From an uncultured Draconibacterium sp. (GTDB lineage Bacteria > Bacteroidota > Bacteroidia > Bacteroidales > Prolixibacteraceae): 64,000 nucleotides of DNA. Of the stretch, positions 28,373 through 47,438 are shown piece after piece. Within the stretch, counting starts at the first letter, position 1. Each line of letters begins with the position of its first letter. Both the position numbers and the translations under genes were made by a program. The DNA lies in the NCBI RefSeq assembly GCF_913063105.1, contig NZ_CAJXYQ010000014.1:62001-126000 (forward strand), read 5' to 3'. Under the pieces are notes generated by a model that saw nothing but the letters and a program-made list of their open reading frames with translations, was not told where the DNA came from and searched no databases.

Positions 28373-28413
28373 TTATTTGTAAAAATTCATGGACAGATTC
28401 AAATAAAAACAAA

Positions 28414-29535
28414 ATGAGAAAATTGTGTATTATTTTAATCACTCTACATGGATTAATTCATTTAATTGGATTTATCCAGACTTTTAAAATTACAGATTTT
28501 AAAATGTTAAATCACCCAATTTCAAAAGTTATAGGAATTATGTGGTTGCTTGGTGTTTTATTATTTATTCTGGTAAGTGTAATGTATATATTAAAAAGTG
28601 AGTTTTGGTGGCTAGCTGGTTTTATAGCAATATTTATTTCCCAAATATTAATCATATTATTTTGGCAAGAGGCTAAATTGGGTATCATTCCAAACATAAT
28701 TATCCTATTAGCATGTATTGTTGCATGTTCGAACTTTTATTTTAACCAAAAAGTTAATGAAGAACTATCGCAATTATTTATTGAAGCTAAATATGCGGCT
28801 TCACCTTCCAGAAATATTCAAGAATTACCACTCCCTGTTCAAAGATGGTATAATTCCAGTGGATTTTTATCTTCAGAAAATGAAATAATTAAAAATGTTT
28901 ACTTGAAACAGGAAGTCTTAATGAAGACGAAACCCCAACAAGAAATATGGTACAAAGGACATGCAGTTCAATATTTCAACATACAACAACCTGCATTCAA
29001 TTGGTCTGTTGCTTTGGACATGAATCCATTAATAAAAGTTGTTGGTAGAGACAAATTCGAAAATGGTAAAGGTGAAATGTTAATTAAATTGTATTCGATT
29101 TTCCCTGTTGTAAACGTAAAAGATAATGACAAAATTAATCAAGCAGCGCTTCAAAGATACTTGGCAGAGATTGTTTGGTTTCCTGCTGCCGCATTAAGCC
29201 GATATATTACATGGGAAAGTATTGACAACTACTCAGCACGTGCTACCATGACTTTTAATGGCACAACCGGTTCCGGAATTTTTTATTTTAATGAAAATTG
29301 GGAGTTTGTAAGGTTCAGTGCAATGAGATATAAAGACACAGATGAAAATGCTCAACTTAAAGAGTGGATAGCTGAAGTTATCGAAAGTAAAGTTATAAAT
29401 GGTATAAAAATCCCGGTTGAAATGAAAGTTACATGGAAATTAAAAGATACTGAATGGACTTGGTTGAAATTAAAAATATCTGAAATTCAATACAATGTAG
29501 AAGAAATGCCAGTGGCTAACATTTTGTATAAGTAA
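28414..29535 (+). CDS. Membrane protein with soluble C-terminal domain (DUF6544/DUF6920-like)
   Basis: 373 residues. Four hydrophobic segments occupy about residues 1-110, and a soluble ~250-residue domain follows, starting near LPLPVQRWYNSSGFL. That stretch, together with WFPAAALSRYITWESID and ATMTFNGTTGSGIFYFNE, resembles an uncharacterised family whose members often carry such an N-terminal membrane part; the family number is from memory. No catalytic motif is evident. A/T-rich like its two upstream neighbours, with 41 bp spacing, so the three form a likely transcription unit. Function unknown. Confidence 0.7.
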   Translation: MRKLCIILITLHGLIHLIGFIQTFKITDFKMLNHPISKVIGIMWLLGVLLFILVSVMYILKSEFWWLAGFIAIFISQILIILFWQEAKLGIIPNIIILLACIVACSNFYFNQKVNEELSQLFIEAKYAASPSRNIQELPLPVQRWYNSSGFLSSENEIIKNVYLKQEVLMKTKPQQEIWYKGHAVQYFNIQQPAFNWSVALDMNPLIKVVGRDKFENGKGEMLIKLYSIFPVVNVKDNDKINQAALQRYLAEIVWFPAAALSRYITWESIDNYSARATMTFNGTTGSGIFYFNENWEFVRFSAMRYKDTDENAQLKEWIAEVIESKVINGIKIPVEMKVTWKLKDTEWTWLKLKISEIQYNVEEMPVANILYK

Positions 29536-29539
29536 TGGC

Positions 29540-29655
29540 AGGCAAAGTGCTAAATATCAAGGATTGTAGCTCGCTCAAACTGCGTATCGGTTTGACAGGA
29601 AAGAAGCCCGCAATCTGCCACTACTCATACAATTTACCGTTATGCCGCATGTTAA
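29540..29655. repeat. attC-like imperfect palindrome, site 1
   Basis: Ends with ACCGTTATGC, whose reverse complement GCATAAC is the left-end sequence of site 2. The middle folds around TCAAAC-N9-GTTTGA with flanking GATTG.../...CAATC arms. It separates two gene groups in the A/T-rich block. The 5' core is poor, so the call is tentative. Confidence 0.4.
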
Positions 29656-29699
29656 AAAAGAAAGAATTTAAATACTTGTAAAATATACTAAAATGATAT

Positions 29700-29719
29700 A
29701 CTTTTGAAATACTAAAAGT
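29700..29719 (+). promoter_or_regulatory. Promoter and inverted repeat of the toxin-antitoxin operon
   Basis: TACTTTTG (29699-29706) fits the -7 consensus, and ACTTTT-N8-AAAAGT overlaps it, 7 bp before the antitoxin start codon. A site here would suit the autoregulation usual for RHH antitoxins. Confidence 0.4.
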
Positions 29720-29726
29720 GTAAATT

Positions 29727-29957
29727 ATGAAAACAGTATCATTAAAGATTGACGATTCTATTTTTGGAGAAACCGAAAAGATTCTTTCAAAAATTAAGAA
29801 ACCAAGAAACAGGTATATTAATGAGGCAATTGAATATTACAATAGATTGCAACGACGCGCTCTGTTGGAGGAAAAACTAAAAAAAGAATCTGATTTGGTA
29901 AAAAAAGATTCAATGACTGTACTTAAAGATTTTGAGGAGATTGATTATGTCGATTAA
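29727..29957 (+). CDS. Ribbon-helix-helix-type antitoxin of a MazEF-like pair
   Basis: 76 residues. The start KTVSLKIDDSIFGETEKIL has the short beta strand and helix of ribbon-helix-helix DNA-binding proteins; RNRYINEAIEYYNRLQRRALLEEKL is the second helix and the toxin-binding tail is charged. The gene overlaps the start of the MazF-like toxin gene by 11 bp, the standard antitoxin-first order. It probably neutralises the toxin and represses its own promoter. A/T-rich. Confidence 0.82.
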   Translation: MKTVSLKIDDSIFGETEKILSKIKKPRNRYINEAIEYYNRLQRRALLEEKLKKESDLVKKDSMTVLKDFEEIDYVD

Positions 29958-30294
29958 ACAATACGAAATCTGGATTGCAGATTTAAATCCGCAAATAGGG
30001 ACAGAACCTGGCAAAACTAGACCAGTTCTTACAATCCAAACAAATCTATTAAATCAAATTCCACATCCATCAACAATTGTTTGCCCTTTGACAACAAATG
30101 TTAAAAAAGACTCGGAAATCTTGAGAGTCCATATAAAAAAAGGAGAGGCAAATTTACATCAAAATTGCGATGTAATGATTGACCAAATTAGGGCAATTGA
30201 TAATAAACGACTTGTTAAGAAAGTTGGAAATTTACCACAAAACCTAATTGAAAAGGTGAAAGAAAATTTAATGATAATAATTGATTTGGTATAA
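29947..30294 (+). CDS. mazF: MazF/PemK-type endoribonuclease toxin
   Basis: 115 residues from the ATG at 29947 (an upstream in-frame ATG at 29932 is less likely, because it overlaps the antitoxin further and adds only five residues). The sequence has the full MazF pattern: YEIWIADLNPQIGTEPGKTRPVL, with the Arg-Pro pair, then STIVCPLTT, and MIDQIRAID near the end with the conserved Asp/Gln/Arg. MazF toxins cut mRNA at short sequence motifs. The antitoxin gene overlaps it by 11 bp. Its place between attC-like sites suits the known enrichment of toxin-antitoxin pairs in integron cassettes. Confidence 0.92.
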   Translation: MSIKQYEIWIADLNPQIGTEPGKTRPVLTIQTNLLNQIPHPSTIVCPLTTNVKKDSEILRVHIKKGEANLHQNCDVMIDQIRAIDNKRLVKKVGNLPQNLIEKVKENLMIIIDLV

Positions 30295-33204: not shown

Positions 33205-34524
33205 TCAGCAATCTGTTCCTTTTCCTTCAGCTTGTTCTTTAAACCAGCTTAAAGGGTGCGAGGTTGGCCGCTCAATCGGCATTCCGTAAATGCGGTCGTT
33301 AATTAACGAGGCTAAAACGCCCAGTGCACGCGATACGCCAAACAATACGGTATAGAAAGTATATTCTTTAATTCCGTAGTGGTAGAGCAACGATCCGCTG
33401 TAGGCATCAACGTTTGGCCATGGATTTTTAATTTTTCCTACCGAGCCTAAAATTGGTGGAACCACGCGGTACAACTGGTTAGCCAGGTTAACCATCTTAT
33501 CTTCTTTGATGTACTTGTTGGCAAATTCTTGCTGAGCGGTAAAACGTGGGTCGGTTTTGCGTAAAACAGCATGTCCGTACCCCGGTATTACCCGACCTTC
33601 TTCCAGCGTTTTTTTACAGTAAGCGGCTACCTGCTCGTCGGTTGGCGTATCGGTATCCAGGTCTTCAATCATCTGGAACATCCAGAAAATTACATCCTGG
33701 TTGGCAAAACCGTGTAAGGGACCTGCCAACCCGTTCATTGCAGCGGAATAGGCGTAGTACGGATTACTTAAAGCCGAGCCTACCAGGTGTGCTGTATGTG
33801 CCGATACGTTTCCTCCCTCGTGGTCGGCGTGAATAATCATATACAAACGGAATAAGCGACGAATATCTTCCGAGTCAAAACCCATCATGTGCGCCAGGTT
33901 ACCGGCCCAGTCTAAACGCGGATTTGGTTCAATATGATGACCGTTGTGGAACTGACGGCGATAAATGTATGCCGCAATACGTGGTAAACGGGCAATCAGG
34001 TTCATTACATCTTCGTAAGTAGCATCCCAGTAGAATTTTTTACCAACTCCTGCGCGGTAAGCTTTCTGAAAGATTGATTCGGTTGCCATTGATACAATAG
34101 CCGCACTAAACTGAGTCATTGGTTTTGATGTTTTTGGCATTGCATCAATTACATCAAAAACATGCTGAGGTACGTGCGAACGTGTCGACCAGTCTTTCGA
34201 CAAGTTAATGGCATCATCCTGCGATGGTATTTCGCCAATCAGCATCAGGTAAAACAAGCCTTCGGGAAGTGGTTCTCCATCCGGATTGATTTTTGGCAGT
34301 TTTTCCTGTAATTCAGGAATTGAATAACCTTTAAAACGTATGCCCTCTTCCGGGTCGAGTTTCGAGGTATCGGTTACCAGCAAAGGTATACCTTTCATTC
34401 CGGTTAATACTTGTCCGAGTGTTACTTCACCCAAAACCACATCAGCATGCTCACTTTTGAGCCTTTGGAACTCCTTAGCGCACTTATTCGCTTTCTGATA
34501 AAATCTGTACTTAATGTATTCCAT
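33205..34524 (-). CDS. gltA: Citrate synthase, eukaryotic (mitochondrial)-like type
   Basis: 439 residues. It combines oxaloacetate and acetyl-CoA into citrate. The body matches the mitochondrial-type enzyme rather than the E. coli GltA type: the core stretch LFRLYMIIHADHEGGNVSAHTAHLVG with its catalytic His, followed by NPYYAYSAAMNGLAGPLHG, the GYGHAVLRKTDPR segment and the DAYSG region with its catalytic Asp. Cytoplasmic. Last gene in a minus-strand series with two isocitrate dehydrogenases and aconitase, 25 bp from the IDH gene upstream. Confidence 0.95.
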   Translation of the reverse strand: MEYIKYRFYQKANKCAKEFQRLKSEHADVVLGEVTLGQVLTGMKGIPLLVTDTSKLDPEEGIRFKGYSIPELQEKLPKINPDGEPLPEGLFYLMLIGEIPSQDDAINLSKDWSTRSHVPQHVFDVIDAMPKTSKPMTQFSAAIVSMATESIFQKAYRAGVGKKFYWDATYEDVMNLIARLPRIAAYIYRRQFHNGHHIEPNPRLDWAGNLAHMMGFDSEDIRRLFRLYMIIHADHEGGNVSAHTAHLVGSALSNPYYAYSAAMNGLAGPLHGFANQDVIFWMFQMIEDLDTDTPTDEQVAAYCKKTLEEGRVIPGYGHAVLRKTDPRFTAQQEFANKYIKEDKMVNLANQLYRVVPPILGSVGKIKNPWPNVDAYSGSLLYHYGIKEYTFYTVLFGVSRALGVLASLINDRIYGMPIERPTSHPLSWFKEQAEGKGTDC

Positions 34525-34549
34525 TTGTTATAGTTATTGATTTATTTTA

Positions 34550-35815
34550 TTAATGCATATTTTTAATTATGGCGTCGGCAAATTCCGAAGTACTCAGCAG
34601 GGTAGCTCCCTCCATCTGCGCATGCAGGTCGCTGGTTACTTTCCGTTTGGCAAACACGTGCTCCATGGCATCGTAAACATGTTCTGCTGCGTCTTGCCAG
34701 CCCATATATTCCAGCATCATAACCGCCGAAAGGATAAGCGAGCCGGGGTTTGCTTTACCTGTTCCGGCAATGTTTGGAGCTGTTCCGTGGGTAGCTTCAA
34801 AAATGGCATAACCACTTTGGTAATTAATGTTGGCTCCCGGCGAAATACCAATACCGCCAACCATTGCTGCCAATTGGTCGGACACGTAATCGCCGTTCAG
34901 GTTCATGGTTGCAATAACCGAATGATCCCATGGGTGTAATAGCGACTCCTGAAGAAATGCATCAGTAATACAGTCTTTAACAATTACCTTTCCGGCCTTT
35001 TTGGCTTCGTCCAAAGCTTTGTTGGCATCCAGTTCTCCCTTATCTTTTTTCAGGGCTTCATACTGACGCCAGGTAAAAGTTTGTTCGGCAAATTCACTTT
35101 CTGCCAAATCATAACTCCAGTTTTTAAATGCTCCTTCGGTAAATTTCATAATATTTCCTTTATGAACAATGGTAACCGATGGCAACTGGCGATCAATAGC
35201 ATATTCGATAGCCGCTTTGGTTAAGCGTTCCGATCCGTCTTTTGATATGGGTTTTACGCCAAACGACGATGATTCAGGGAAACGCACCTGGTCTACACCC
35301 ATTTCATTAATCAGAAAATCGCGGAATTTTTTGGTCTGCTCGTCACCTACCATGTATTCAATACCGGCATAAATATCTTCGGTATTCTCACGGAAAATGT
35401 GCATGTCAACCATCGACGGGTAACGGATAGGCGAGGGTACGCCTTTAAACCAGCGTACGGGGCGCACACAAACATACAGGTCGAGCGTTTGACGTAAAGC
35501 TACATTCAGCGAACGTATACCTCCGCCAACCGGTGTTTGTAACGGACCTTTTATTCCTATAAGGTATTCTTTAAAAGCCTCAATTGTTTCGTCGGGAAGG
35601 TAACTTCCAACTTGGTGGTAGGCTTTTTCTCCGGCCAGCACTTCTTTCCAGGTAATTTTTTTCGAATCGCCATAGGCTTTTGCTACAGCAGCATCAATTA
35701 CCCGTTGCGATGGACCGGTGATATCCTTTCCAATTCCGTCTCCTTCAATAAAAGGTATGGTGGGATAATCCGGTACAACCAGCTTCCCGTTGATTATTTT
35801 GGTTTTTTGTGTCAT
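34550..35815 (-). CDS. icd: NADP-dependent isocitrate dehydrogenase, prokaryotic (Icd) type
   Basis: 421 residues. It oxidatively decarboxylates isocitrate to 2-oxoglutarate. The Icd-type marks are clear: [24 protein letters not shown] at the N-terminus, the substrate Arg/Ser segment around [53 protein letters not shown], and the [19 protein letters not shown] segment near the end. It is the second, non-orthologous IDH in this operon and sits directly before citrate synthase. The intergenic space upstream is filled by the repeat-flanked GxxExxY gene. Confidence 0.94.
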
Positions 35816-35838
35816 ATACTTATTTTTTCTCGCAGATT

Positions 35839-35894
35839 TCGCGGATTATCGCAGAAATAATATTTGCGTTATCTGCGCAATCAGCCAGTAATTT
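35839..35894. repeat. Left 56-bp direct repeat flanking the GxxExxY gene
   Basis: Matches 36329-36384 at 53 of 56 positions (45 of the first 46). Preceded by an extra TCGCAGATT, so that CGCAGAT...ATCTGCG arms can fold into an imperfect hairpin. It lies between the GxxExxY stop codon and the icd start codon. Confidence 0.85.
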
Positions 35895-35908
35895 TTTTAT
35901 CAGCTACT

Positions 35909-36292
35909 TTATAAGTTGTTTACTATCCTTTTAATATTGTTTGAAATGTGATCCGAATTGAAATTTACCAAGATTCCAAGTTTTTTATCAGATAACTTCA
36001 GATAAGTCAGAACTTGTTTGTAATGAACATCTGTCAAAGCCTCAACTGATTTTAACTCGATAATAACTTTATCTTCTACCAAAATGTCAATTCTGAATCC
36101 CTGCTCAAACTTTATTTCTTCGTACACAAATGGCAGTGCCACTTGTCGTTTTACATTGTATCCAAATTTTTCAATTTCATAACTTAAAGCTGTTTCGTAC
36201 ACCGACTCAAAAAGTCCCGGTCCCAATGAATTGTACACTTTGAAAATCGCTTGTCTTACATCATAAGAAATTTGATTTTCAATTTTTTCCAT
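35909..36292 (-). CDS. GxxExxY protein, PD-(D/E)XK nuclease-like fold
   Basis: 127 residues. It carries the name-giving motif GPGLFESVY (near 29-37) and the stretch FRIDILVEDKVIIELKSV, in which Asp and Glu-x-Lys have the spacing of the PD-(D/E)XK nuclease core. The family is widespread in Bacteroidota and other environmental bacteria, has no firm function, and by its fold may bind or cut nucleic acid. This copy interrupts a tricarboxylic acid operon and is bracketed by near-identical direct repeats. In frame, intact and of usual length for the family. Confidence 0.9.
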   Translation of the reverse strand: MEKIENQISYDVRQAIFKVYNSLGPGLFESVYETALSYEIEKFGYNVKRQVALPFVYEEIKFEQGFRIDILVEDKVIIELKSVEALTDVHYKQVLTYLKLSDKKLGILVNFNSDHISNNIKRIVNNL

Positions 36293-36328
36293 TCTGCTTT
36301 TAGTTATTTTGTCCCTCGTATCTTTTTT

Positions 36329-36384
36329 TCGCGGATTATCGCAGAGATAATATTTGCGTTATCTGCGCAATCAGCGAGCAATTT
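36329..36384. repeat. Right 56-bp direct repeat flanking the GxxExxY gene
   Basis: Second copy, offset by 490 bp from the left one. It begins after a poly-T run and ends at the stop codon of the upstream IDH gene (36386). Contains TCGCGGATTATCGCAGA and ATCTGCGCAATCAG, as in the left copy. Confidence 0.85.
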
Positions 36385-36385
36385 C

Positions 36386-37612
36386 CTAATTCAGCTTGGC
36401 TTGTAAATTTTCATCCAAAGCTTCCAAAAACTGTTCTGTTGTTAGAAAATGTTCTTCTTTTAAAGCTTTTCCATGAATAATCAGCGCCAGGTCTTTTGTC
36501 ATTTTTCCCGATTCTACCGTTTCAATACACACCTTCTCCAGTGCATGAGAGAAATCGATTAAGGGCTGGTTCCCATCCAGTTTCCCGCGGAAGGCCAAAC
36601 CTCGTGTCCAGGCAAAAATTGATGCAATTGGATTTGTTGAGGTTGGTTTACCTTGCTGGTGCTGGCGGAAATGGCGTGTCACCGTTCCGTGTGCCGCTTC
36701 AGCTTCCATGGTGTTACCATCGGGCGTAACCAGGGTTGAGGTCATTAATCCCAATGATCCAAAACCTTGTGCTACGGTGTCGCTTTGCACATCGCCATCG
36801 TAGTTTTTACAGGCCCAAACAAATCCACCTTCCCACTTCAGGGCAGCAGCTACCATGTCGTCTATCAATCGGTGTTCGTACCAAATGTTTTTGGCTTCAA
36901 ATTTTTCTCTGAATTCATTTTCGTACACCATTTGAAACAGGTCTTTAAAACGGCCGTCGTAAGCTTTTAAAATCGTGTTTTTTGTCGACATGTAAAGCGG
37001 CCAACCCTTGTCAAGCGCCTGATTCATACACGAGCGGGCGAAACCAATAATCGATTCGTCGGTGTTGTACATGGCCATTGCCAAACCGTTTCCTTCAAAA
37101 TCGTAAACATCGTGCGAAATGGGTTCACTGCCATCTTCTGGTGTGAAGGTGATGGTAAGTTTCCCTTTTCCTTTTGTCAGAAAATCAGTAGCACGATACT
37201 GATCACCAAAAGCATGTCGACCAATACAAATGGGTTGTTTCCAACCGGGCACCAAACGTGGTATGTTCGAAATCATAATGGGTTCGCGAAAAACTGTTCC
37301 GCCCAAAATGTTTCGTATGGTTCCGTTTGGCGATTTCCACATTTTTTTCAAACCAAATTCTTCCACCCGGGCTTCGTCCGGAGTAATAGTAGCACATTTT
37401 ACACCTACGCCATATTTTCTTATCGCATTGGCTGCGTCAATGGTAATTTGATCGTCGGTGGCATCGCGGCTTTCCATTCCCAAATCGTAATATTTTAAAT
37501 CAATATCAAGATAAGGCAGAATAAGTTTTTGTTTGATAAAATCCCAGATTACCCGGGTCATTTCATCGCCGTCGAGTTCCACTACAGGATTTTGAACTTT
37601 GATTTTTTGCAT
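36386..37612 (-). CDS. NADP-dependent isocitrate dehydrogenase, eukaryotic-type (subfamily II)
   Basis: 408 residues. The start ([29 protein letters not shown]) is the hallmark of the eukaryotic homodimeric NADP-IDH group, distinct from Icd. Other marks include [19 protein letters not shown] (substrate loop), [20 protein letters not shown], and [36 protein letters not shown]-type metal-site Asp residues, with [15 protein letters not shown] near the coenzyme site. It catalyses the same reaction as the Icd-type enzyme next to it. It is 87 bp downstream of aconitase. Confidence 0.94.
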
Positions 37613-37699
37613 GGTCGAATTAAATTAATTTACTGGTTATAATTAAATTATGAATGGGCAAAGCAGTTTTACTGCCTTGCCCAGACCTAAATTTATTGT

Positions 37700-39961
37700 T
37701 TATTGATTTTGTTCTTTGATTAGATTTAAGGCCGAACCGGCTTTAAACCACTCAATTTGTTGCTGATTATAAGTGTGATTCAGCTTTATTACATCTGATG
37801 AACCATCGGTATGTACTACCTCAAGGGTGAGCTGTTTGCCCGGAGCAAAATCAACTAAATCAACAAAGTTAAACGTATCATCTTCTTTAATCAGGTCGTA
37901 ATCGTTCTCGTTATCGAAAGTTAAACCCAGCATTCCCTGCTTTTTCAGGTTCGTTTCATGAATTCGCGCAAATGATTTTACAATTACTGCTTTAACTCCC
38001 AGATGACGGGGTTCCATTGCAGCATGTTCGCGCGATGATCCTTCGCCATAATTTTGGTCGCCAACCACAACAGTAGGAATACCTTCTGCTTTGTATTGGC
38101 GTTGAACGGCCGGTACCGCATCGTATTCACCGGTAAGCTGGTTTTTTACCTTGTTGGTTTCGCCGTTAAAAGCGTTAACAGCTCCAATCAGCATATTATT
38201 CGAAATGTTATCGAGGTGACCACGGAAACGTAACCACGGTCCGGCCATCGAAATGTGGTCGGTAGTGCATTTCCCCTGTGCTTTTATTAAAAGTTTGGCT
38301 CCAGCTATATTTTCTCCGTTCCAGGCTTCAAAAGGCGACAGCAGTTGCAAACGCTTTGATTCGGGCGAAACATTAACAACTACACCTGCGCCATCGGCTG
38401 CCGGTGCCTGGTAGCCCGGGTCTTCCACGTCAAAACCTTTTGAAGGTAATTCTTCGCCTGTAGGCAGGTCGAGTTTAACTTCAACTCCGTCTTTATTGGT
38501 AAGCGTATCGCTTGCCGGATTAAAATCCAAACGTCCGGCAATAGCCAGTGCAGTTACCAGTTCGGGTGATGTTACAAAGGCGTGGGTATTCGGGTTACCG
38601 TCTGCCCGTTTCGAGAAGTTACGGTTAAACGAATGTACAATTGTATTTTTTTCTCCTTTCTCAGCTCCGGGGCGTGCCCATTGGCCGATACACGGACCGC
38701 ACGCATTGGCAAATACCTTTCCGCCAATTTTCTCGAAGGTGTCGATAAACCCATCACGCTCGATGGTGTAACGCACCTGTTCCGATCCGGGAGTAACAGT
38801 AAATTCGGCTTTTGTTACCAAGCCTTTTTCTTCAGCTTGTTTGGCAATTGATGCAGCACGCGAAATGTCTTCGTAAGAAGAGTTGGTGCAGCTACCAATT
38901 AATCCAACCGATACTTCCATTGGCCAACCATTCGCTTCTGCTTCTGCTTTCATTTTTGAAACAGGCGTGGCACGGTCGGGAGTGAAAGGCCCGTTAATGT
39001 GTGGCTCCAGTTCCGAGAGGTTAATCTCAATAATTTCATCGTAGTATTTTTCAGGGTTGGCATACACCTCCTGGTCAGCATCAAGGTGTTCTTTTACACC
39101 ATTGGCCAGTTCAGCAACTTCAGCACGTCCGGTAGCCCGCAGGTAACGTTCCATACTTTCGTCGTAGGCAAAAATACTGGTGGTAGCACCAACTTCAGCG
39201 CCCATGTTACAAATGGTTCCTTTTCCTGTTGCCGAAAGCGATTTTGCGCCTTCACCAAAATATTCGATAATGGCCCCGGTACCACCTTTAACGGTAAGAA
39301 TTCCGGCCACTTTCAGAATCACATCTTTGGGTGCTGCCCAGCCACTTAATTTGCCGGTAAGTTTTACTCCGATCATTTTGGGCATTTTCAACTCCCAGGC
39401 CATTCCTGCCATAACATCAACGGCGTCGGCACCTCCTACACCAATGGCAACCATTCCAAGGCCACCCGCGTTAACGGTGTGCGAGTCGGTTCCAATCATC
39501 ATTCCACCGGGGAATGCATAGTTTTCCAAAACCACTTGGTGTATAATTCCTGCTCCGGGTTTCCAAAAACCTATTCCGTATTTATTAGAAACGGATTCCA
39601 GGAAATCAAAAACTTCCTTATTGGCATTTTTTGAAACTGACAGGTCGGTTTTTCCTTCCACCTGCGCCTGAATGAGGTGGTCGCAGTGTACCGTTGATGG
39701 TACTGCAGTTCGTTTTTTCCCGGAGTTAATAAATTGAAGCAAGGCCATTTGTGCAGTTGCATCCTGCATGGCTACCCGGTCGGGAGCAAAATCTACATAA
39801 TCTGCTCCTCGGTTAAAAGCAGCTAATTCCTGCGCTGCAAACAGGTGAGAATAAAGAATTTTTTCTGCGTAAGTCATTGGCTTATTCAGAACAGCTTTTG
39901 CTTTGCTAACCCTTTCAGGGAGTTCTGAATATACTTTTTTTACTAAGTCTAAATCAAACAT
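37700..39961 (-). CDS. acnA: Aconitate hydratase (mitochondrial-like type)
   Basis: 753 residues. It interconverts citrate and isocitrate through cis-aconitate, with a [4Fe-4S] cluster. Its three cluster cysteines are seen in [13 protein letters not shown] (near 358) and [10 protein letters not shown] (near 421 and 424). Also present are [14 protein letters not shown] and the swivel-domain motif [22 protein letters not shown], with the substrate-binding Arg/Ser. The length and order fit the mitochondrial-type enzyme rather than AcnB. First gene of the tricarboxylic block. Confidence 0.95.
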
Positions 39962-40260: not shown

Positions 40261-41736
40261 TTATTTGTTGTTGGTTACAATTCGTTGATAGGCTAATTTA
40301 GAACTGATAATGGCCATTGGAATACCTGCTCCGGGAACAGTAGAGGCGCCCACATAAAAAACATTTTTAAATTTTTCATCGATATTACGGGGACGCATAA
40401 TGCCAATTTGGTTCATGCTGTGCGACAGGCCCAATCCGCTTCCCCGATGTAAGTTAAATTGTTGTTGCCATTCATATGGTGTATAAATGGTTCTGGAAAT
40501 AACATGTTTCTCAATGTTTTTGTCAATTCGTTTAGAAAAATCCTGTAGTATACTGTCTACAATTTCATCTTTATCAGACCAGTTTTGTTTAAAATATAAG
40601 TTGGGTACGGGGCAAACAAAAAACAGGCTCTCGCAACCCTGGGGAGCGCACTCCTCGTTGTGTTTTGATAAAACGTTTACATAATAGTAAGGTTTTTGCA
40701 GTGTACCCGGATTTTTCATCACATTTTCAGCGTAATCTTTATAATTGGTGCCGAGGTAATAGTTGTGGTGATTAACTTGTGGGAGCTTGCAATTTAACCC
40801 GATGTAAAAGGTAAGGTAACCCATTGTCCAGCTCATTTTATCGAGCTTTTCGGGTGCATATTTTCTGCGTTTAAAAATATTTCCTCTAAACCAGGCAGCA
40901 TCCGAGTTAATAACATAATAATCGGCTGTCCACGATTTGCCATTTTGGTCGGTTAATGCTTTCAAAGTGTCGTTTGACTTTTTAAAGTCTTTAATTTCAG
41001 TATTAAAATGGATGTGTACATTATCGTTTTTAAGTACTTCAACAAAACCTTCAATAATTTTATACATTCCCCCCTTTACGTTGAAATATCCATCGTGTTG
41101 AAATTCGGTGTATGATAGCAAGCTATAAATTCCCATGGTATCAAAGGGGGTGCGCCCAAGGAAAAATGCAACAAGAGATATGATTTGTTGGGCTTGTGCA
41201 GAGGAGAAGTAGTTGGTTACGTGCTTCCAGAAACTTTTGAACAACACTGGGATATGCACCGGGTTTACGCGCATTAAAGCCCATACATATCCGGCCAGCG
41301 AATCGAAATTTTGTTTGATAACGATGTCAACGGTATCGTGAAAAAGTGCTCCTGATTTTTTAATGTAACGCTCGAATTTTTCTTTAAAATCGGGTTCAAT
41401 GTCTGCAAATTGTTCAGCCAGTTTGTCAATATCTTTATACAAAAAATAGGTTTTATCGTCGCCTCTGAAATTTACCGTGTATAACGGATCGAGTTCTACG
41501 TACTCAAATGGCAGTTGAATACCACAATCCTGTGCAAATTCTTTAAACTCGTACGACATGCTAAAAAAACTGGGGCCGGTATCAAAAGTAAACCCGTCTT
41601 TTTTAATTTGGTTGAGCCTTCCGCCTGGCTGATTGTTTTTTTCCAGGATCTCAACCTGATAACCTGCTTTTACCAACCTGATTGCTGTGGCCAGCCCTCC
41701 GATGCCTGCACCAACTACCAAAACCTTCTTTTTCAT
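40261..41736 (-). CDS. crtI: Phytoene desaturase (CrtI family)
   Basis: 491 residues. The N-terminal FAD-binding dinucleotide fold is KVLVVGAGIGGLATAIRL with KNNQPGGRL following, and TFDTGPSFF marks the CrtI family. The C-terminal flavin motif (NVFYVGASTVPGAGIPMAIISSKLA) is the bacterial-type phytoene desaturase signature. It introduces double bonds in phytoene to form lycopene or similar. CrtD-type or ketolase relatives have the same fold; the cluster lacks another desaturase, so the main phytoene desaturase is favoured. It lies 74 bp after the TPR gene, behind a paired motif that may be its own operator. Confidence 0.92.
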   Translation of the reverse strand: MKKKVLVVGAGIGGLATAIRLVKAGYQVEILEKNNQPGGRLNQIKKDGFTFDTGPSFFSMSYEFKEFAQDCGIQLPFEYVELDPLYTVNFRGDDKTYFLYKDIDKLAEQFADIEPDFKEKFERYIKKSGALFHDTVDIVIKQNFDSLAGYVWALMRVNPVHIPVLFKSFWKHVTNYFSSAQAQQIISLVAFFLGRTPFDTMGIYSLLSYTEFQHDGYFNVKGGMYKIIEGFVEVLKNDNVHIHFNTEIKDFKKSNDTLKALTDQNGKSWTADYYVINSDAAWFRGNIFKRRKYAPEKLDKMSWTMGYLTFYIGLNCKLPQVNHHNYYLGTNYKDYAENVMKNPGTLQKPYYYVNVLSKHNEECAPQGCESLFFVCPVPNLYFKQNWSDKDEIVDSILQDFSKRIDKNIEKHVISRTIYTPYEWQQQFNLHRGSGLGLSHSMNQIGIMRPRNIDEKFKNVFYVGASTVPGAGIPMAIISSKLAYQRIVTNNK

Positions 41737-41768
41737 TTCGTTAAAATTGTTTTCTTCAGTTGCATTAG

Positions 41769-41814
41769 ATGAAACGCGCGATGAATTTTAATATGCCTTT
41801 CATGCTCGTTTCAT
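41769..41814 (-). promoter_or_regulatory. Inverted pair of the ATGAAACG motif upstream of crtI
   Basis: On the minus strand ATGAAACGAGCATGAA (41799-41814) faces TTCATCGCGCGTTTCAT (41769-41785), making a near-perfect inverted repeat with a 13-bp spacer. The 14-mer ATGAAACGAGCATG is identical to one upstream of the methyltransferase gene. It overlaps the stop codon of the TPR gene and ends 32 bp before crtI. Confidence 0.6.
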
Positions 41815-42554
41815 TTTTCTGCCAGTTTTGTTTTTATATTCGGATATAGTTCGTCTTTCACCCATTGAAAATCCGGGGCAATTTTTAATACCTTTTCATA
41901 AATAGCTTTTGCTTTTTCGTATTCTTCCATCTCTTCATACGATTGCCCTGTTGTACTAAGTAAACTCAAATAATTCCAATCGTTTTTTAGTGAATCAGGT
42001 TCTTTTTCCATCAGTTTTATAGCCATTAAAAAATGCTCGATGGCTACTTTTTTCGACCCGCCAAATACTGCCGGCATATAAAAATAGGTATTTCCGTATT
42101 GTATGTGTGCAAAAGGCAGCTTGTTATTTAGTTGTAATGCCTGGTTTACATGTTTTACACACTGCCGACCCAATACCGGTGCTTTAAATGGATGAATGCC
42201 AATTTTAAATCCGTAAAAAGCAGCCTTGTAGGCATGGATAACAGCAGGGGGAAAACTTTGTTCTTCCAATACGGCGAGGTTGTTTTGAGCCAGATCAAGA
42301 TACGTTTTGGCGGCTTGTTTGTTTCGCATACCGAGACAATAGCCAATGTAACCGTATTGGTAGTTAACCAGTTCGATAAGATAGGTTGTGTCGCGGCTTT
42401 TATTTAACTCCATACTGTCCATTACGGTTTTCCAGTTATCCATGCGGTTGCTTGTATAAGCCCGGTATATTTTATCTTTATTTGTTGCCCTCGAAAAACC
42501 AGACATTGCAACAATAAGGAGCAGAATTACTATGAAATGTTTCGTCCTTTCCAT
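41811..42554 (-). CDS. TPR-repeat periplasmic or secreted protein within the carotenoid cluster
   Basis: 247 residues with a signal peptide (HFIVILLLIVAMSGFSRA). TPR-like helix pairs are seen at residues ~150-235, most clearly QSYEEMEEYEKAKAIYEKVLKIAPDF. It has no catalytic motif. The gene starts inside the 3' end of the glycosyltransferase gene (25-bp overlap), so it is translationally linked with it, but a direct role in pigment synthesis is not known. It may help assemble or locate the enzymes at the membrane, which is inference. Confidence 0.75.
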   Translation of the reverse strand: MERTKHFIVILLLIVAMSGFSRATNKDKIYRAYTSNRMDNWKTVMDSMELNKSRDTTYLIELVNYQYGYIGYCLGMRNKQAAKTYLDLAQNNLAVLEEQSFPPAVIHAYKAAFYGFKIGIHPFKAPVLGRQCVKHVNQALQLNNKLPFAHIQYGNTYFYMPAVFGGSKKVAIEHFLMAIKLMEKEPDSLKNDWNYLSLLSTTGQSYEEMEEYEKAKAIYEKVLKIAPDFQWVKDELYPNIKTKLAEK

Positions 42555-43621
42555 GTAAACGACTTATTTGTTTTATTTCGAAATGCTGTTGCAATGAATA
42601 TACCCAGGCTTATTTGTTGCGGAATTATTAGCAGTACGTTCTTTGCTGCATTTTGCCGGCTCGTTAAACTTACCAAAATACGAATGGATAGAAAAATAAT
42701 AAAATAGGTAAGCATCAAAGATTTGGGCATGGCAAGCACTACCGGAATAAATCCGAAGGTGGTAATAAGCCAGAATAAAACAGCGAGAACTGCTGAGTTG
42801 CCAAAAAACATGATAACATTTTTTGAGAACCCGTTCACCGCCTCAGAAAAAGAACCGTACATGTGGCAAGCAATGTTGTTGTTTCCCTGTAAACAGGCAA
42901 TTTTAATTTTGTTCTGTTTTAAATACTGAGCAATGGCAATATCTTCAACCTTGTTATTACAAAAAGTAGCATGCGGTTGGTGCTTCCGATAGGTTTGGGC
43001 GTTAAAAAGCATAAACTGGCCATTTGCCGCTGCCATTGAAACAAAAGGAAGTACCCGAACAAAAATTAGCGGTAAAAGAGACAGCAGAATGAAGGTCATA
43101 TTAGGAACAGTTATGTATTCGCCCCAGGTGCGCATTTTTTGTTTTGGGAAAATTGATAGGAGCCCTAATTTGTACCTCTGCATTTTTTGTAGTGTTGAAG
43201 TGAGAATATTGCCAGCTATGCGCACATCGGCATCAAGAAAAAGCAGATAGTCTCCTTTTGCTTTTTGTGCCAAACTATAACATCCATAATTTTTACCCAG
43301 CCATCCATCGGGCAGTCCTGAAGAATTCACGAGATGAATTCTTTTGTCATTCTGTGCAGCATTTTTTACCTGTTCGGCCGTCCTGTCAACCGACTGGTCA
43401 TTAAAAACCAAAATTTCAAAATTTTGATAATTCTGCTGCAGGATATCATTTAACAAAAGGCCAATATTTTCTTCTTCGTTGCGGGCCGGAATTAAAATAG
43501 AAACCAAAGGATAGTTTTGTTCGGATTGGGCCCTTAACGGCTGGCTGAAAAAGGTATTAATTAAGACAACCCAAAGTTGTAATGCGGTAAAAATTAATAT
43601 GATCCAGGCTGCTATAATCAT
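42530..43621 (-). CDS. cruG: Family 2 glycosyltransferase, CruG-like
   Basis: 363 residues. An N-terminal membrane segment, then a GT-A domain: SILIPARNEEENI, LVFNDQSVDRT, LGKNYGCYSLAQKAKGDYLLFLDADVR with the DxD motif at 130-132, and the EDIAIAQYLK acidic motif. Three or so C-terminal membrane segments follow. Because it lies close to cruF, it is probably the carotenoid glycosyltransferase CruG, which adds sugar to the hydroxyl made by CruF; staphyloxanthin CrtQ is the other option in the same superfamily. Four base pairs separate it from the acyltransferase. Confidence 0.75.
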   Translation of the reverse strand: MIIAAWIILIFTALQLWVVLINTFFSQPLRAQSEQNYPLVSILIPARNEEENIGLLLNDILQQNYQNFEILVFNDQSVDRTAEQVKNAAQNDKRIHLVNSSGLPDGWLGKNYGCYSLAQKAKGDYLLFLDADVRIAGNILTSTLQKMQRYKLGLLSIFPKQKMRTWGEYITVPNMTFILLSLLPLIFVRVLPFVSMAAANGQFMLFNAQTYRKHQPHATFCNNKVEDIAIAQYLKQNKIKIACLQGNNNIACHMYGSFSEAVNGFSKNVIMFFGNSAVLAVLFWLITTFGFIPVVLAMPKSLMLTYFIIFLSIRILVSLTSRQNAAKNVLLIIPQQISLGIFIATAFRNKTNKSFTWKGRNIS

Positions 43622-43625
43622 TTAG

Positions 43626-44246
43626 CTATTCGGATTTTTGCGCCTGCGTATTCAGGCATTGTTGATAAAATTGGTTGTAGGATTTTTCGATTAATTCTAC
43701 CTTTTTCGTGCCCAAATAAGTGCCGACATAAAAATAAGCCTGAGGCCTGGCAGTAGATAAGTAATCGACAAAGTTGGCCTGAAATATTATCTGAATTTCA
43801 TTTTTTGTTCGTTCCAATATTTTTTGAATACCTTTTTCGAAAACAAAGCTGTTTTTGTGCATGCTGTTTATTTTTCCTTGTGGAAACATAAGCACCAGGT
43901 TGTTTGTATTGCCCAATAATTCGGCCGTGTAATCAAGTGTTTCAATAATTGTCCTCGATTGCTTTTTTACAGAAAAACCACCGGTATACTGAAAAAACCA
44001 GTTTTTTCGAAGCTCTTCTTCCAGCATCATAAAATGGTATTTTCTTTTAAATAATTGTTGATTGGTGTATAAGGTCCATATGCCATCCCACCAGCTAATA
44101 TGGTTGCAAATTAGCAGAACAGGCAGCCCGTTGTCGTGCACCTTTCCAACGACAGAAAAGGACTGAAAACTTCGTTTCATTTTCCAAAGTACATAATACC
44201 TGAAAAACGGATCGAGGAAAAAATGATGTTTTGCCTTGATAATCAA
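43626..44246 (-). CDS. PlsC-family acyltransferase in the carotenoid cluster
   Basis: 206 residues. NHISWWD (His49, Asp54) is the HX4D catalytic motif of glycerol-3-phosphate acyltransferase-like enzymes, with MFPQGKINS as the second conserved motif (FPxG). It lies between cruF and the glycosyltransferase with 4-bp spacers on both sides, so an acyl transfer to the carotenoid sugar is plausible, by analogy with the acyltransferase step in staphyloxanthin or thermozeaxanthin synthesis. It could instead be an ordinary lysophosphatidate acyltransferase. Confidence 0.75.
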   Translation of the reverse strand: MIIKAKHHFFLDPFFRYYVLWKMKRSFQSFSVVGKVHDNGLPVLLICNHISWWDGIWTLYTNQQLFKRKYHFMMLEEELRKNWFFQYTGGFSVKKQSRTIIETLDYTAELLGNTNNLVLMFPQGKINSMHKNSFVFEKGIQKILERTKNEIQIIFQANFVDYLSTARPQAYFYVGTYLGTKKVELIEKSYNQFYQQCLNTQAQKSE

Positions 44247-44250
44247 AATT

Positions 44251-44913
44251 TTAATTTAAAGTTAGTAGTAGCAGTAAAAAAAATACCGCCTGAATTACAA
44301 ATACATATGGTGCTATTTTATTTTTTGTGTTTATTCTAAACAGGTGTAAAAGAGCGGAAAAAGAAAGTCCTAATAAGAACCATACGAGGTAATTCTGTAG
44401 TGGAATATTTGCTGTTGAAAAACTCCACATTGCTATTTTGGGCGCCACCTGTTCTAATAAGATGTCGTAAAGTAACAGAAGAGATGCCGCCCCTGTAACT
44501 TTTATTAGCGGATGGCAATTGATTTGTTGCATAATTGCGTTTGATGTATAAACCAGCAACAACCAGTTTAGCCCAATAATCAGCGGGGTATTGGCTACCT
44601 TTATACCAAGGCCGTGTCCGTATTTGTATTCTCCAAAGATGATTCCGGTTTGTACACCTATTAATTCAATAAAAAAACTGAGCACATAAATGAGAAGGAA
44701 AATTAATACCGTTGTTTTTGAAAAAGTAGCATGAAAAAACGCTACAAAAAAGCTGCTTAATAACAAGGCGAACGGGGTTAAACGAATAAAAAAGGACTGG
44801 CTAGCAGAAAGGGACAAGCCAAGCACGCCAACGGTATAAAATACAACTAAAAAGAATACCACATAGTTAAAATGTGATTGTATTGTTGCTGCTATTTTTT
44901 TTGGGTTAATCAT
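44251..44913 (-). CDS. cruF: CruF-type carotenoid 1',2'-hydratase (DUF422)
   Basis: 220 residues, strongly hydrophobic with about seven membrane segments. The middle, GVQTGIIFGEYKYGHGLGIKVANTPLIIGLNWLLLVYT, matches the DUF422/CruF carotenoid hydratase family, and LLLYDILLEQVAPKIAMWSF carries its second conserved block. The enzyme hydrates the psi-end to give a 1'-hydroxyl group. It overlaps the lycopene cyclase gene by 8 bp, so the two are made together, and stands next to a glycosyltransferase, the cyanobacterial-type CruF-CruG arrangement. Confidence 0.88.
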   Translation of the reverse strand: MINPKKIAATIQSHFNYVVFFLVVFYTVGVLGLSLSASQSFFIRLTPFALLLSSFFVAFFHATFSKTTVLIFLLIYVLSFFIELIGVQTGIIFGEYKYGHGLGIKVANTPLIIGLNWLLLVYTSNAIMQQINCHPLIKVTGAASLLLLYDILLEQVAPKIAMWSFSTANIPLQNYLVWFLLGLSFSALLHLFRINTKNKIAPYVFVIQAVFFLLLLLTLN

Positions 44914-45598
44914 TCCGCTTTTCTATTTTAGAAAATTGTTCAATTAGTAGCAAGTTGCACAAAATCATGCTAAAAGCATAGGCAAAATCTTCAATCGGAA
45001 TGGTAAAAAAGCGCCATCCCATATTTTCATTGTCATTATACCAAACCACTTCTTCAGCAATAAAAGAACCTGTTAGAATTCCATTCACCAGCAGAAATGG
45101 CACCAGGATTACGAGAAATGTAATAAAAAATGAACGGGGTATTTCGCTCTTACTTATTAGCGCCAATATGAGCACAACGGCCAGTTTTAAAGCAATATAA
45201 AAGGTATAGGTTTTATCGGTATTAATAATGGCAATTGCAAGGCAAAAAAGAAGAAAGGCCACCATCAGGGTTTTAGTTAAATACGAATTTAACCTGAGTT
45301 TTGGAAAGTATTCGAGAATTGATTCGTGCAAAAATAGGCTTGCGTATGGAACTACAATAAAAAACAAAATCTCTTCAAGTGGCAACGAGAATAAATTTGA
45401 GCCGGATAAATACCTTGGATTGAAGCCCCAGACTTGTTGTTTGGTAAAACGTATATCAAAAGCAATATACAGCCCAGCCACAAGCAGAATTGCCGGCAAA
45501 ACCTTGTTCCAACGTTTGTAAAACTGAAGTCGTTTATCAAAACTCAGTGCAATTGGAAAAATACCTGTAGCTGTAAGTAGTATAAAATATAGTGACAT
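44906..45598 (-). CDS. crtY: CrtYcd-type lycopene cyclase (fused)
   Basis: 230 residues, with about seven hydrophobic segments. It has two related halves: PLEEILFF (with the acidic pair at 75-76) in the first and IPIEDFAYAF near the C-terminus in the second. This is the fused form of the heterodimeric (CrtYc/CrtYd) cyclase found in Bacteroidota and fungi/archaea, unlike the flavoprotein CrtY of proteobacteria. It forms a beta-ionone ring on lycopene or gamma-carotene. It starts directly after the crtZ stop. Confidence 0.92.
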   Translation of the reverse strand: MSLYFILLTATGIFPIALSFDKRLQFYKRWNKVLPAILLVAGLYIAFDIRFTKQQVWGFNPRYLSGSNLFSLPLEEILFFIVVPYASLFLHESILEYFPKLRLNSYLTKTLMVAFLLFCLAIAIINTDKTYTFYIALKLAVVLILALISKSEIPRSFFITFLVILVPFLLVNGILTGSFIAEEVVWYNDNENMGWRFFTIPIEDFAYAFSMILCNLLLIEQFSKIEKRND

Positions 45599-46072
45599 TT
45601 ATTTTTTTAAGAATCGGAATTGAAAGAGCAATAATCCATAATTATCAAAATCATGTATGTTTTTTCCCCTGTGGTGAGCAAGGTGTGCCTTTTGGACTGC
45701 TTTTAAATAGCGGTTTGTGGTGTGAATAAGAAACGGAATATGCAGCCGTTGATGTATCATTACATCGTGCAACAGAAAGTAGGTGAGGCCATAGGCGCTA
45801 ATCCCAATTCCCAAAGCAATTAAGGCCTGCAGGTTAAATAAAAAGCCGATAAGCAAAACAATAATTGCAGGAAGCGCATAAACCAGGAAGAAGTAGTCGT
45901 TTTTCTCGAAACCCGGTTTATAAAGTTCGGTTTGCGATGCATTTTTTTTATGATCGTTTATATGGTGATCGCGGTGCCATTTCCATAAAAAACCATGCAT
46001 AACATATTTATGGTTCGACCAGGCCACAAATTCCATAAAACAAAAAGCAATAATGGCAATTACGATATTCAC
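45599..46072 (-). CDS. crtZ: Beta-carotene hydroxylase (CrtZ)
   Basis: 157 residues. The eight or more His ligands of the non-haem di-iron hydroxylase family lie in four motifs: HKYVMHG at 21-27, HRDHH at 33-37, HDVMIHQR near 101-108 and HLAHH near 129-133. About three to four membrane segments lie between them. It places a 3-hydroxyl on the beta-ionone ring. Spacing to idi is 2 bp and to crtYcd 0 bp. Confidence 0.93.
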   Translation of the reverse strand: MNIVIAIIAFCFMEFVAWSNHKYVMHGFLWKWHRDHHINDHKKNASQTELYKPGFEKNDYFFLVYALPAIIVLLIGFLFNLQALIALGIGISAYGLTYFLLHDVMIHQRLHIPFLIHTTNRYLKAVQKAHLAHHRGKNIHDFDNYGLLLFQFRFLKK

Positions 46073-46074
46073 TG

Positions 46075-46605
46075 CTACTGATTTAAATATTCATTTACAC
46101 GTTTATATATTTTTCTGAACCACACGGTGTAATTATCCGGATTTTGAATTATTTCCTTATCCAGTTGATCGAAATCAATGTATTTCCACGCAAAAACCTC
46201 GTCGGCATCAGGTGTTGGAGTTTCATCGCTTTGCCCAATAAATACATGATCCAATTCGTGTTCCGTTAGTTCATTCTCCAGTACTTCCTTATAGGTAAAA
46301 TCAAATATCTTCTTTAGGCCGGTTGCCATTCCCATTTCTTCCCTTAGGCGGCGGTTGGCTGCCTCTATTGAATCTTCCGAGGGAAAAGGGTGACTGCAAC
46401 AAGTGTTGCTCCAAAGTCCGCTTGAGTGGTATTTATTGAAGGCACGTTGTTGCAAAAGCCATTGGCCTTTTGTGTTAACGATAAAAACAGAGATAGCCCG
46501 GTGAAGCTCCCCTTTTACATGTGCTTCCATTTTTCCCATCTCGCCAAGCACCTGGTCGTTTTTGTCAACCAGAATAACCTTTTCCATTTTGTTTTTATTC
46601 GTCAT
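46075..46605 (-). CDS. idi: Isopentenyl-diphosphate delta-isomerase, type 1
   Basis: 176 residues. It interconverts isopentenyl and dimethylallyl diphosphate. The metal and catalytic region SGLWSNTCCSHPFPSED (Cys69/Cys70 with His) and the Nudix helix AANRRLREEMG are intact, and the YKEVLENELTEHELDHVF segment carries the second Glu. The start overlaps the crtB stop in an ATGA, which supports this ATG over an in-frame ATG six codons later. It feeds precursors into the pigment pathway. Confidence 0.94.
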   Translation of the reverse strand: MTNKNKMEKVILVDKNDQVLGEMGKMEAHVKGELHRAISVFIVNTKGQWLLQQRAFNKYHSSGLWSNTCCSHPFPSEDSIEAANRRLREEMGMATGLKKIFDFTYKEVLENELTEHELDHVFIGQSDETPTPDADEVFAWKYIDFDQLDKEIIQNPDNYTVWFRKIYKRVNEYLNQ

Positions 46606-47438
46606 ACAAGTCGAAGATTATAAAGTGTTTGTGCTTTTAGCATAATCAGAAGTTTTTTATAATTCGGAATTCGAACCCTGCTTTGCATAATTGTTGCGGC
46701 AGGCGTTTTTCGTAGTTTGTTGAGCAATAAACGGTAATAATAATAAGCTAACAGAACAGCCAGTTTCGATTTCCCGGGCAATTCTCTAATACCCTTGTAA
46801 GCGGTTGCAAAGTCTGCTTCAATATCTTTAACAATTCTATTCTTTTGTTCTTCGCAAAATTCTCTGTTGCTCAACTCCGAAAAATAATGTCGTCCCAAAG
46901 TTTCAGTGTCTTCGCGCAGGTCTCTCAGAAAATTTACTTTCTGAAAGGCAGAGCCGAGTTTCATTGCAGGAAGCAATAATTCATTGTATTTTTTATTATT
47001 CCCGTTGCAAAATACCTTTAAACACATCAGCCCAACAACATCAGCCGAACCATAAATATATTGTTCCGCCTCCAGTTTTGTTTTGTATTCTTTTTTTTCC
47101 AGATCATAACGCATACTTGTAATAAAAGCATCAATATATGCCTGCGGAATATGATACTTTTTTACTGTTAACTGAAATGATTGAAGAATGGGGTTTAAAC
47201 TTATTCCCCGTTGAATGGCTTCTTTAAAATCTGCTTCAAATCGGTCTAAGAGATAAGACTTGTTGTATTCGTGAAAGGTATCAACTATTTCATCGGCAAA
47301 CCGCACAAATCCATAAATGCTGTATATGGCATCGCGCTGCTCTTTTTGTAACAGATTTGTTGCGAATGAAAAAGAAGTACTGTAGGAAGTTGTAACAACT
47401 TTTGAGATATTAAATGCACATTTATTGTAGAACCTCAT
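46602..47438 (-). CDS. crtB: Phytoene synthase (CrtB)
   Basis: 278 residues. It joins two geranylgeranyl diphosphates. The two Asp-rich motifs are DEIVD at 49-53 and the later NFLRDLREDTETLGRHYF block near 170, both needed for Mg2+ and diphosphate binding. The start is close to an elaborate palindromic region upstream. No geranylgeranyl diphosphate synthase is in the window. First gene of the carotenoid operon. Confidence 0.93.
   Translation of the reverse strand: MRFYNKCAFNISKVVTTSYSTSFSFATNLLQKEQRDAIYSIYGFVRFADEIVDTFHEYNKSYLLDRFEADFKEAIQRGISLNPILQSFQLTVKKYHIPQAYIDAFITSMRYDLEKKEYKTKLEAEQYIYGSADVVGLMCLKVFCNGNNKKYNELLLPAMKLGSAFQKVNFLRDLREDTETLGRHYFSELSNREFCEEQKNRIVKDIEADFATAYKGIRELPGKSKLAVLLAYYYYRLLLNKLRKTPAATIMQSRVRIPNYKKLLIMLKAQTLYNLRLV

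Follow-up and report, generated by a model that had tools for sequence, protein, structure and literature searches.

A stretch of 64,000 nucleotides from an uncultured Draconibacterium sp. (hereafter referred to as the window) carries, on the minus strand from position 47438 to 40261, an operon of nine genes whose product is best predicted to be an acylated monocyclic carotenoid glycoside, a prediction that probably holds. The genes lie in the order CrtB, Idi, CrtZ, CrtYcd, CruF, a PlsC-type acyltransferase, a GT2 glycosyltransferase, an exported tetratricopeptide repeat (TPR)-like protein and CrtI. An earlier note on this DNA had given the strand and the limits of the operon correctly, with CrtB starting at 47438 and CrtI ending at 40261, and the families of the eight genes named in it are supported, by hidden Markov models for all except CrtZ. 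Its list was incomplete, however, as the gene for the TPR-like protein of 247 amino acids (42554..41811) was overlooked. The first 25 bp of this ninth gene lie within the end of the GT2 gene, and 74 bp separate its own end from CrtI, so that CrtI does not directly follow the glycosyltransferase, and the successive spacings in the operon (-4, 2, 0, -8, 4, 4, -25 and 74 bp) range from -25 to 74 bp and not from 0 to 4 bp. The set of pigment genes is ordinary for the order, and it is the exported protein, which resembles HusA, that provides the new lead and makes this operon variant worth testing. The genome (Bacteroidota) comprises 4.93 Mb in 41 contigs and is 91% complete.

The arrangement of the late genes was compared in several sets of loci. 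A search with the single acyltransferase sequence matched 18 of 295 genomes of the class and 38 of 149 genomes of the order. Regions from 34 of these 38 PlsC-positive genomes of the order were counted, the window itself, G338, G366 and G435 being excluded. A second set of 80 named loci represents the best 80 of 579 confirmed relatives of the acyltransferase and is thus biased towards closely related loci instead of being drawn at random; the two sets overlap in some genomes (L125 and L053, for example). CruF, the acyltransferase and GT2 occur in the same order and on the same strand in 31 of the 34 order loci and in 73 of the 80 named loci, and because of the latter count the arrangement is far beyond chance. 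CruF is found near the acyltransferase in 75 and GT2 in 78 of the named loci. The seven exceptions include four loci that start at the acyltransferase (L133, L155, L187 and L191), one that ends in it (L160), one with 2 kb before the acyltransferase in which CruF was not recognised (L165) and one without an open reading frame for GT2 (L167). An acyltransferase inside a pair of CruF and a glycosyltransferase had been regarded as uncommon in the earlier note; in view of these counts and of published precedents this view was rejected, as the acyltransferase with the CruF-glycosyltransferase pair is the usual form in the order and its place between CruF and GT2 the usual one in the loci examined. 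The precedents include a Chloroflexus genome for which cruF, cruC and cruD are listed (PMC4155588) and a clustered CruD homologue in Rhodothermus (PMC5822342).

The association extends beyond the order. Of the 16 PlsC-positive genomes of the class belonging to other orders, 15 were fetched in full (not G088), providing 16 loci (two from G080); the order PlsC-GT2-CruF is present in 10 of them as judged from the map and in 8 by the automatic rule. Twenty loci were also fetched, from other classes of the phylum, out of 220 genomes with a match to the PlsC profile, and CruF, PlsC and GT2 are all present in 10 of these. Two loci outside the class (L253 and L254) show the order CrtB-CruF-PlsC-GT2-TPR-CrtI, which is that of the window, with GT2 identities of 49% and 46%, respectively; this hints at a transfer of the whole module. 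The module was also observed in records titled Patescibacteria, Ignavibacteria, Fibrobacteria, Fibrobacter and Ignavibacteriales (L137, L162, L163, L178 and L188), for which transfer, wrong labels or mixed bins could account. Two different acyltransferases stand in tandem ahead of GT2 and CruF in three genomes, all from a single family of another order (L086:9043-10290, L088:9148-10397 and L091:8964-10204), perhaps serving two acyl groups.

The acyltransferase gene (43626..44246, with a TTG start; PF01553, 3.2e-12) encodes a protein of the PlsC/GPAT fold, annotated here as a probable carotenoid-glycoside acyltransferase similar to CruD. It carries the motifs H49-x4-D54 (H49ISWWD54) and FPQG, and eight columns including N48, H49, D54, P122 and G124 are invariant in an alignment of 31 diverse rows. 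The AlphaFold2 model (pLDDT 92) matches the GPAT 8e4y with a Z score of 15.8, the PlsC 5kym with 15.6 and PatA with at most 10.6. The similarity to PatA (Z 9-11) might have pointed to acylation of a sugar; this was rejected, since PlsC and GPAT score higher and the fold does not pick the substrate. A sequence search of the PDB gave one chance match with the single sequence and none with profile A3.

In a phylogenetic tree of 57 rows, which are a chosen part of the fetched loci and were rooted at the midpoint only, the operon enzyme belongs to a 40-row clade supported at 100/100, and 36 of these rows are linked to CruF or come from the named loci. The tree leaves out L099 and four of the five further PF01553 proteins encoded elsewhere in the same genome, as they lack the searched motif. 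The genome's own protein resembling lysophosphatidate (LPA) acyltransferases has a branch length above 4 and is placed far from the operon enzyme; on the LPA acyltransferase model TIGR00530 (cut-off 102.95) the operon enzyme reaches 29.4 bits and the other PlsC protein of the genome 91.1, just under the cut-off. The placement in a well-supported and mostly CruF-linked clade, with five other PF01553 proteins available elsewhere in the genome, supports the addition of an acyl group proposed in the earlier note. Of nine profile-positive genomes of the phylum examined for the FMO protein, five bear it (green sulfur bacteria) and have one match each to the PlsC profile, and in C. tepidum, a green sulfur bacterium, CruC and CruD produce glucoside laurates (PMC6166724). 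These two findings are read here as supporting a CruD-like role of the operon acyltransferase, the green sulfur matches being candidate CruD proteins.

The GT2 gene (42530..43621; PF00535, 4.1e-21), with the motifs DAD at 130 and ED at 226, encodes a probable carotenoid 1'-O-glycosyltransferase. The label CruG-like applied to it in the earlier note was too specific. CruG identity was rejected, as the protein reaches 104.3 bits on the CruG model NF045692, far below the cut-off of 600, and scores higher, with 124 bits, on the HpnB model (cut-off 379).

The early steps of the pathway can be assigned from the remaining genes. CrtB (46602..47438; PF00494, 6.4e-46), the first gene, encodes phytoene synthase and is 77-79% identical to its counterparts in four Draconibacterium loci (L113-L116). 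It is followed by Idi, a type 1 isopentenyl diphosphate isomerase (46075..46605) with 153.7 bits on NF002995/PRK03759 (cut-off 127) and 121.1 on TIGR02150 (cut-off 105.8). A putative CrtZ-type beta-ring 3-hydroxylase with a GTG start (45599..46072) was recognised by four His boxes (H21x4H, H33x2HH, H102x4H and H130x2HH), which we take to be the signature of CrtZ, and its homologues occupy the same position in relatives. CrtYcd (44906..45598) is a fused lycopene cyclase of the heterodimer type (PF18916, 2.4e-35; TIGR03462, 92 bits, cut-off 39) and CruF (44251..44913) a carotenoid 1',2'-hydratase whose match to PF04240 (2.8e-24) lies above its cut-off, while those to the NCBIfam CruF models (5e-16 to 9e-8) are all under theirs (best 59 bits vs 155). 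CrtI, the last gene (40261..41736), is a phytoene desaturase with 351.6 bits on TIGR02734 (cut-off 238). Thus, Idi and CrtB would lead to phytoene, supplied by polyprenyl synthases encoded elsewhere in the genome (three with PF00348), CrtI would convert phytoene to lycopene and CrtYcd would close one ring to give gamma-carotene, after which CruF would hydrate C-1' and CrtZ hydroxylate the ring. These four steps are very likely. GT2 would then add a sugar to the 1'-OH, the role of CruC in green sulfur bacteria, and the PlsC-fold enzyme would acylate that sugar as CruD does; these two late steps appear likely, at a lower confidence. The scheme of the earlier note, in which a monocyclic carotene is hydrated at C-1', hydroxylated on the ring and then provided with sugar and acyl groups, is in agreement with the families found.

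Several results weigh against the assignment to an acylated carotenoid glycoside. CruF was not seen for four rows of the 40-row acyltransferase clade, and five CruF-linked rows (L258, L259, L261, L271 and L272) fall outside it. The matches of the green sulfur bacteria group with L271 and L272, also outside the clade of the operon enzyme, and are candidates for CruD only, not tied to it by name. The family is wider than the carotenoid clusters, since the PlsC profile matches 220 of 395 genomes of the phylum, and 10 of the 20 loci fetched from these have no CruF nearby; in four of the CruF-less loci a GT2 gene lies about 1.1 kb away with no other crt gene recognised. GT2 itself scores above its CruG value on HpnB, and CrtZ gave no Pfam or NCBIfam match at an E-value of 1e-3 and chance-level Pfam matches only at E-values up to 10. 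It could be argued that the pigment is a non-glycosylated xanthophyll and that GT2 and PlsC, members of families with many lipid substrates, act in the synthesis or remodelling of a different envelope glycolipid and only accompany the crt genes, as the link of the best-scoring GT2 model to hopanoids and the four loci lacking recognised crt genes would allow. We consider this quite unlikely, as the pair of GT2 and PlsC remains a neighbour of CruF within the order and also across other orders and classes of the phylum, and a fusion of CruF to an acyltransferase provides a precedent (PMC2615216).

An acylated glycoside being preferred, the position of the sugar has to be considered. CrtZ leads one to expect a 3-OH on the ring, and the sugar, with or without the acyl group, might be carried there as in zeaxanthin glucoside esters, leaving the 1'-OH free. 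This is very unlikely, as a CrtZ homologue is present in just 21 of the 80 named loci (searched at the loci only), whereas CruF and GT2 accompany PlsC in nearly all of them. These frequencies (21 loci for CrtZ, 75 for CruF) favour the 1'-OH as the constant acceptor.

The earlier note had further suggested a product resembling saproxanthin or myxol. The 3',4'-double bond of saproxanthin and myxol, however, needs CrtD. As CrtD makes this bond and none was found, such a product is unsupported. The absence of CrtD and of a ketolase noted previously for the operon holds across the 91% complete assembly as searched with PF01593 and PF00487. The four PF01593 matches examined (CrtI, a protoporphyrinogen oxidase, the small subunit of a glutamate synthase and a protein similar to that subunit) include no CrtD or CrtO-type ketolase, and the sole PF00487 protein is a desaturase-Rieske-reductase fusion and not CrtW. 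None of the operon genes was recognised as encoding a 2'-hydroxylase. CrtI scores at most 214 bits on the CrtD models, with cut-offs of at least 500. Related loci of a second type carry a CrtD-like gene immediately before CruF, and some also a CrtW-like PF00487 gene between CruF and PlsC; the locus type of the window has neither. The step may have been taken over by CrtI in the clade of the window, so that it would also form the 3',4'-double bond and the product would be a saproxanthin glycoside ester, and the score of CrtI on the bifunctional CrtID model of NCBIfam (337.5 bits) is near that on the general CrtI model. That score is nevertheless far under the CrtID cut-off of 640, and CrtI proteins 52-59% identical to that of the window co-occur with a CrtD-like gene in L072, L074-L076, L079, L080, L083 and L084, making a takeover unlikely.

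The predicted acylated glycoside finds its closest parallels in the CruF/CruC/CruD pathway of green sulfur bacteria, Chloroflexus, Salinibacter and Rhodothermus, with which it would share the hydration of C-1', glycosylation, acylation of the sugar and a monocyclic core. Unlike in those systems, the late genes here are joined by CrtZ and a HusA-like gene in a single operon. The green sulfur bacteria are described as hydrating with CrtC, whereas the present operon has CruF; salinixanthin bears a 4-keto group, for which no ketolase is available here; and in Rhodothermus neither CruF nor CrtC was detected, with cruC located elsewhere (PMC5822342). In Thermomicrobium roseum a 1,1'-hydroxylase (CruF in Salinibacter) is fused to an acyltransferase domain, so that, as here, an acyltransferase is tied to the hydratase and lies beside GT2/CruC; the fusion protein and the acyclic oscillol core contrast with the separate genes and the cyclic core in the present case (PMC2615216). 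The flexixanthin genes of Algoriphagus, also a member of the Bacteroidota, share crtB, crtI, crtYcd, crtZ and cruF with the operon but include crtD and crtW, and the named pigments are sugar-free, with no glycosyltransferase or acyltransferase named in the part of the source available (PMC10784355). CruF and a glycosyltransferase of Planococcus gave a glycosylated carotenoid in E. coli (PMC8502411). Searches of the literature, judged by titles and the start of abstracts and with subscription journals largely outside their scope, returned nothing pertinent on Draconibacterium and carotenoids, nor on carotenoids together with tetratricopeptide, lipocalin or Bacteroidales.

The ninth gene (41811..42554) encodes a protein with a signal-peptide-like start, described here as a remote homologue of HusA. 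In the named set, 71 of 80 loci carry it next to GT2 or PlsC, a count that includes L167, which was scored by PlsC in the absence of a GT2 reading frame, and loci with an intervening photolyase gene; it adjoins GT2 in 24 of the 34 order loci. Its start overlaps the end of GT2 by 22, 25 or 28 bp in 56 of the 70 named loci scored, and dN/dS values of 0.14-0.21 in three Draconibacterium pairs indicate purifying selection. A hydrophobic N-terminal core is present in all 47 members, an AxA-like site in 36 and a lipobox in 3, as judged by a simple rule and not by a trained predictor. Among the 149 genomes of the order, the gene was detected in 31 of the 38 with the acyltransferase vs 10 of the 111 without it at an E-value of 1e-50, and in 32 of 38 vs 28 of 111 at 1e-5.

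Relationship to HusA was examined by profile and by fold; the TPR alignments comprised 46 related rows out of 59 in the length range (A4) and 32 rows (A5). With the full profile, HusA is the best natural match in the PDB (E 4e-7), behind eight designed TPR repeats. When the profile was restricted to residues 55-185, which exclude the C-terminal TPR motif, the highest-scoring single domain was that of HusA (6bqs; 31.5 bits, E 1e-6), with an alignment spanning profile positions 14-122 including the conserved motif Y-x-P-x-x-FGG-x-K. The predicted structure is all-helical (pLDDT 94.5) and matches HusA with a Z score of 17.0 (14% identity), PTPIP51 with 16.4, TatT with 16.2, a TPAT family transporter with 16.1 and a bacterial sterol transporter with 14.9. 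The TatT family PF16811 matched 3 of the 47 members at an E-value of 0.01 or better (best 0.0011) and left the protein of the window unmatched at E-values up to 10. The protein is thus, on profile evidence, classed as a remote sequence homologue of HusA.

HusA, the haemophore of Porphyromonas gingivalis (PDB 6bqs and 6crl), shares with it the homologous middle region, which bears a Y-x-P-A-x-FGG motif, and a similar fold; the ligand of HusA is haem and the identity is low. HusA is an exported protein, and we know of no carotenoid operon associated with it. To our knowledge, the periplasmic movement of carotenoids and other isoprenoid lipids in bacteria is poorly understood. BstC, which is TatT-like, binds sterols as a putative carrier, and its operon serves to synthesise and transport sterols (PMC10942540). 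BstC and TatT (Tp0956) of PF16811 share the exported TPR-like fold with the present protein and, as here, biosynthetic genes stand in the same operon; BstC has the partners BstA and BstB, whereas neither was recognised in the operon of the window. Because of the homology to HusA, the likeness to TatT and the precedent of BstC in a sterol operon, a role as carrier may be proposed. As a final and weaker step of the pathway, the exported protein might bind the finished glycolipid in the periplasm and aid its placement in the outer membrane, which we regard as possible. Slightly more speculative is the view that the operon encodes both synthesis and delivery, the HusA-like protein being a dedicated carrier that takes the acylated glycoside from the inner membrane to the outer one; it would then, just as tentatively, be the Bacteroidales counterpart of BstC on the fold that HusA uses for haem.

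A number of findings tell against a dedicated carrier. The gene does not stand by GT2 in 9 of the 80 named and 10 of the 34 order loci, although four of the nine (L160, L165, L175 and L184) end too early and L185 carries the gene on the opposite strand. In the 16 loci of other orders it was not seen by blastp, and the profile gave two weak matches (20 and 15 bits), so that glycoside-ester synthesis does without it there. Five paralogues outside carotenoid clusters in genomes of the order (L273, L274, L276, L278 and L279) adjoin prmA, whose product of 281 amino acids was named by eye from its sequence; the tree of the family yields no clean carotenoid-only clade, with the prmA-linked copies nested inside and most deep forks weak. 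The co-occurrence counts given above lend support but are partly circular, PlsC-linked loci having been the source of the TPR profile, and are uncorrected for kinship. TTC0263 (Z 17.1) and an APC subunit (16.8) match the model equally well. Helical repeats give Z 13-14 with unrelated chains, a background that HusA, TatT and BstC exceed by a few units only, and other TPR chains lie at Z 13-15, so that the fold by itself proves little. Part of the 55-185 profile (positions 75-126) is still matched by designed TPR repeats, so TPR-likeness partly remains. TPR folds usually bind proteins, and with paralogues beside prmA and elsewhere the chances are about even that the protein has a general envelope function or acts as a scaffold, with no pigment ligand. 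HusA being the best natural sequence match even without the C-terminal TPR motif argues against this, and an exported protein would not be expected to scaffold enzymes with cytosolic cofactors. If the carrier proposal is correct, a conserved gene overlapping a late-step biosynthetic gene would offer a direct handle on pigment transport, with named type strains carrying the whole operon; Draconibacterium orientale FH5T has the same nine genes.

Other genes accompany the cluster in some relatives. A gene for a lipocalin-type protein (PF08212, 6e-39 in L125) lies inside the carotenoid operon or immediately ahead of it in 6 of the 80 named and 3 of the 34 order loci (for example L125:6174-6707, L141:8094-8627, L177:8792-9316 and L062:6276-6806), at least one genome being shared by the two sets, and was not found in the window; in those relatives this lipoprotein is a possible second carrier of hydrophobic ligands. 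A DNA photolyase homologue occurs in 18 of the 80 named loci (for example L173:11699-13012, L186:11682-13010 and L142:2373-3713) and lies between GT2 and the TPR gene in four (L173, L174, L186 and L187). A TspO/MBR gene (PF03073, 2e-50 in L140) was seen in the carotenoid cluster of two metagenome-assembled genomes (MAGs) of Paludibacter (L140:7687-8160 and L154:5073). A bacterial rhodopsin (PF01036), considered as a possible partner of the pigment by analogy with salinixanthin, gave no match in the genome of the window, nor in the control genomes.

The nearest relatives of the acyltransferase among the best 80 of 579 are from four Draconibacterium genomes (69-71%), Maribellus maritimus (59%) and a MAG titled Draconibacterium (57%), the remaining named loci being mostly titled Bacteroidales or Bacteroidetes. 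Upstream of the operon and on the same strand lies a run of Bat-type genes (BatD and two VWA/BatA proteins), the last of which is separated from the start of CrtB by 175 bp. Downstream, genes for citrate synthase, isocitrate dehydrogenase-type proteins (34550-35815 and 36386-37612) and aconitase are clustered at 33205-39961 of the window, the aconitase and the isocitrate dehydrogenase of 408 amino acids having been named by eye from sequence. The G+C content in 2-kb steps is mostly 0.36-0.47 and has its minimum of 0.31 at 28001-30000, a stretch that is possibly acquired DNA.

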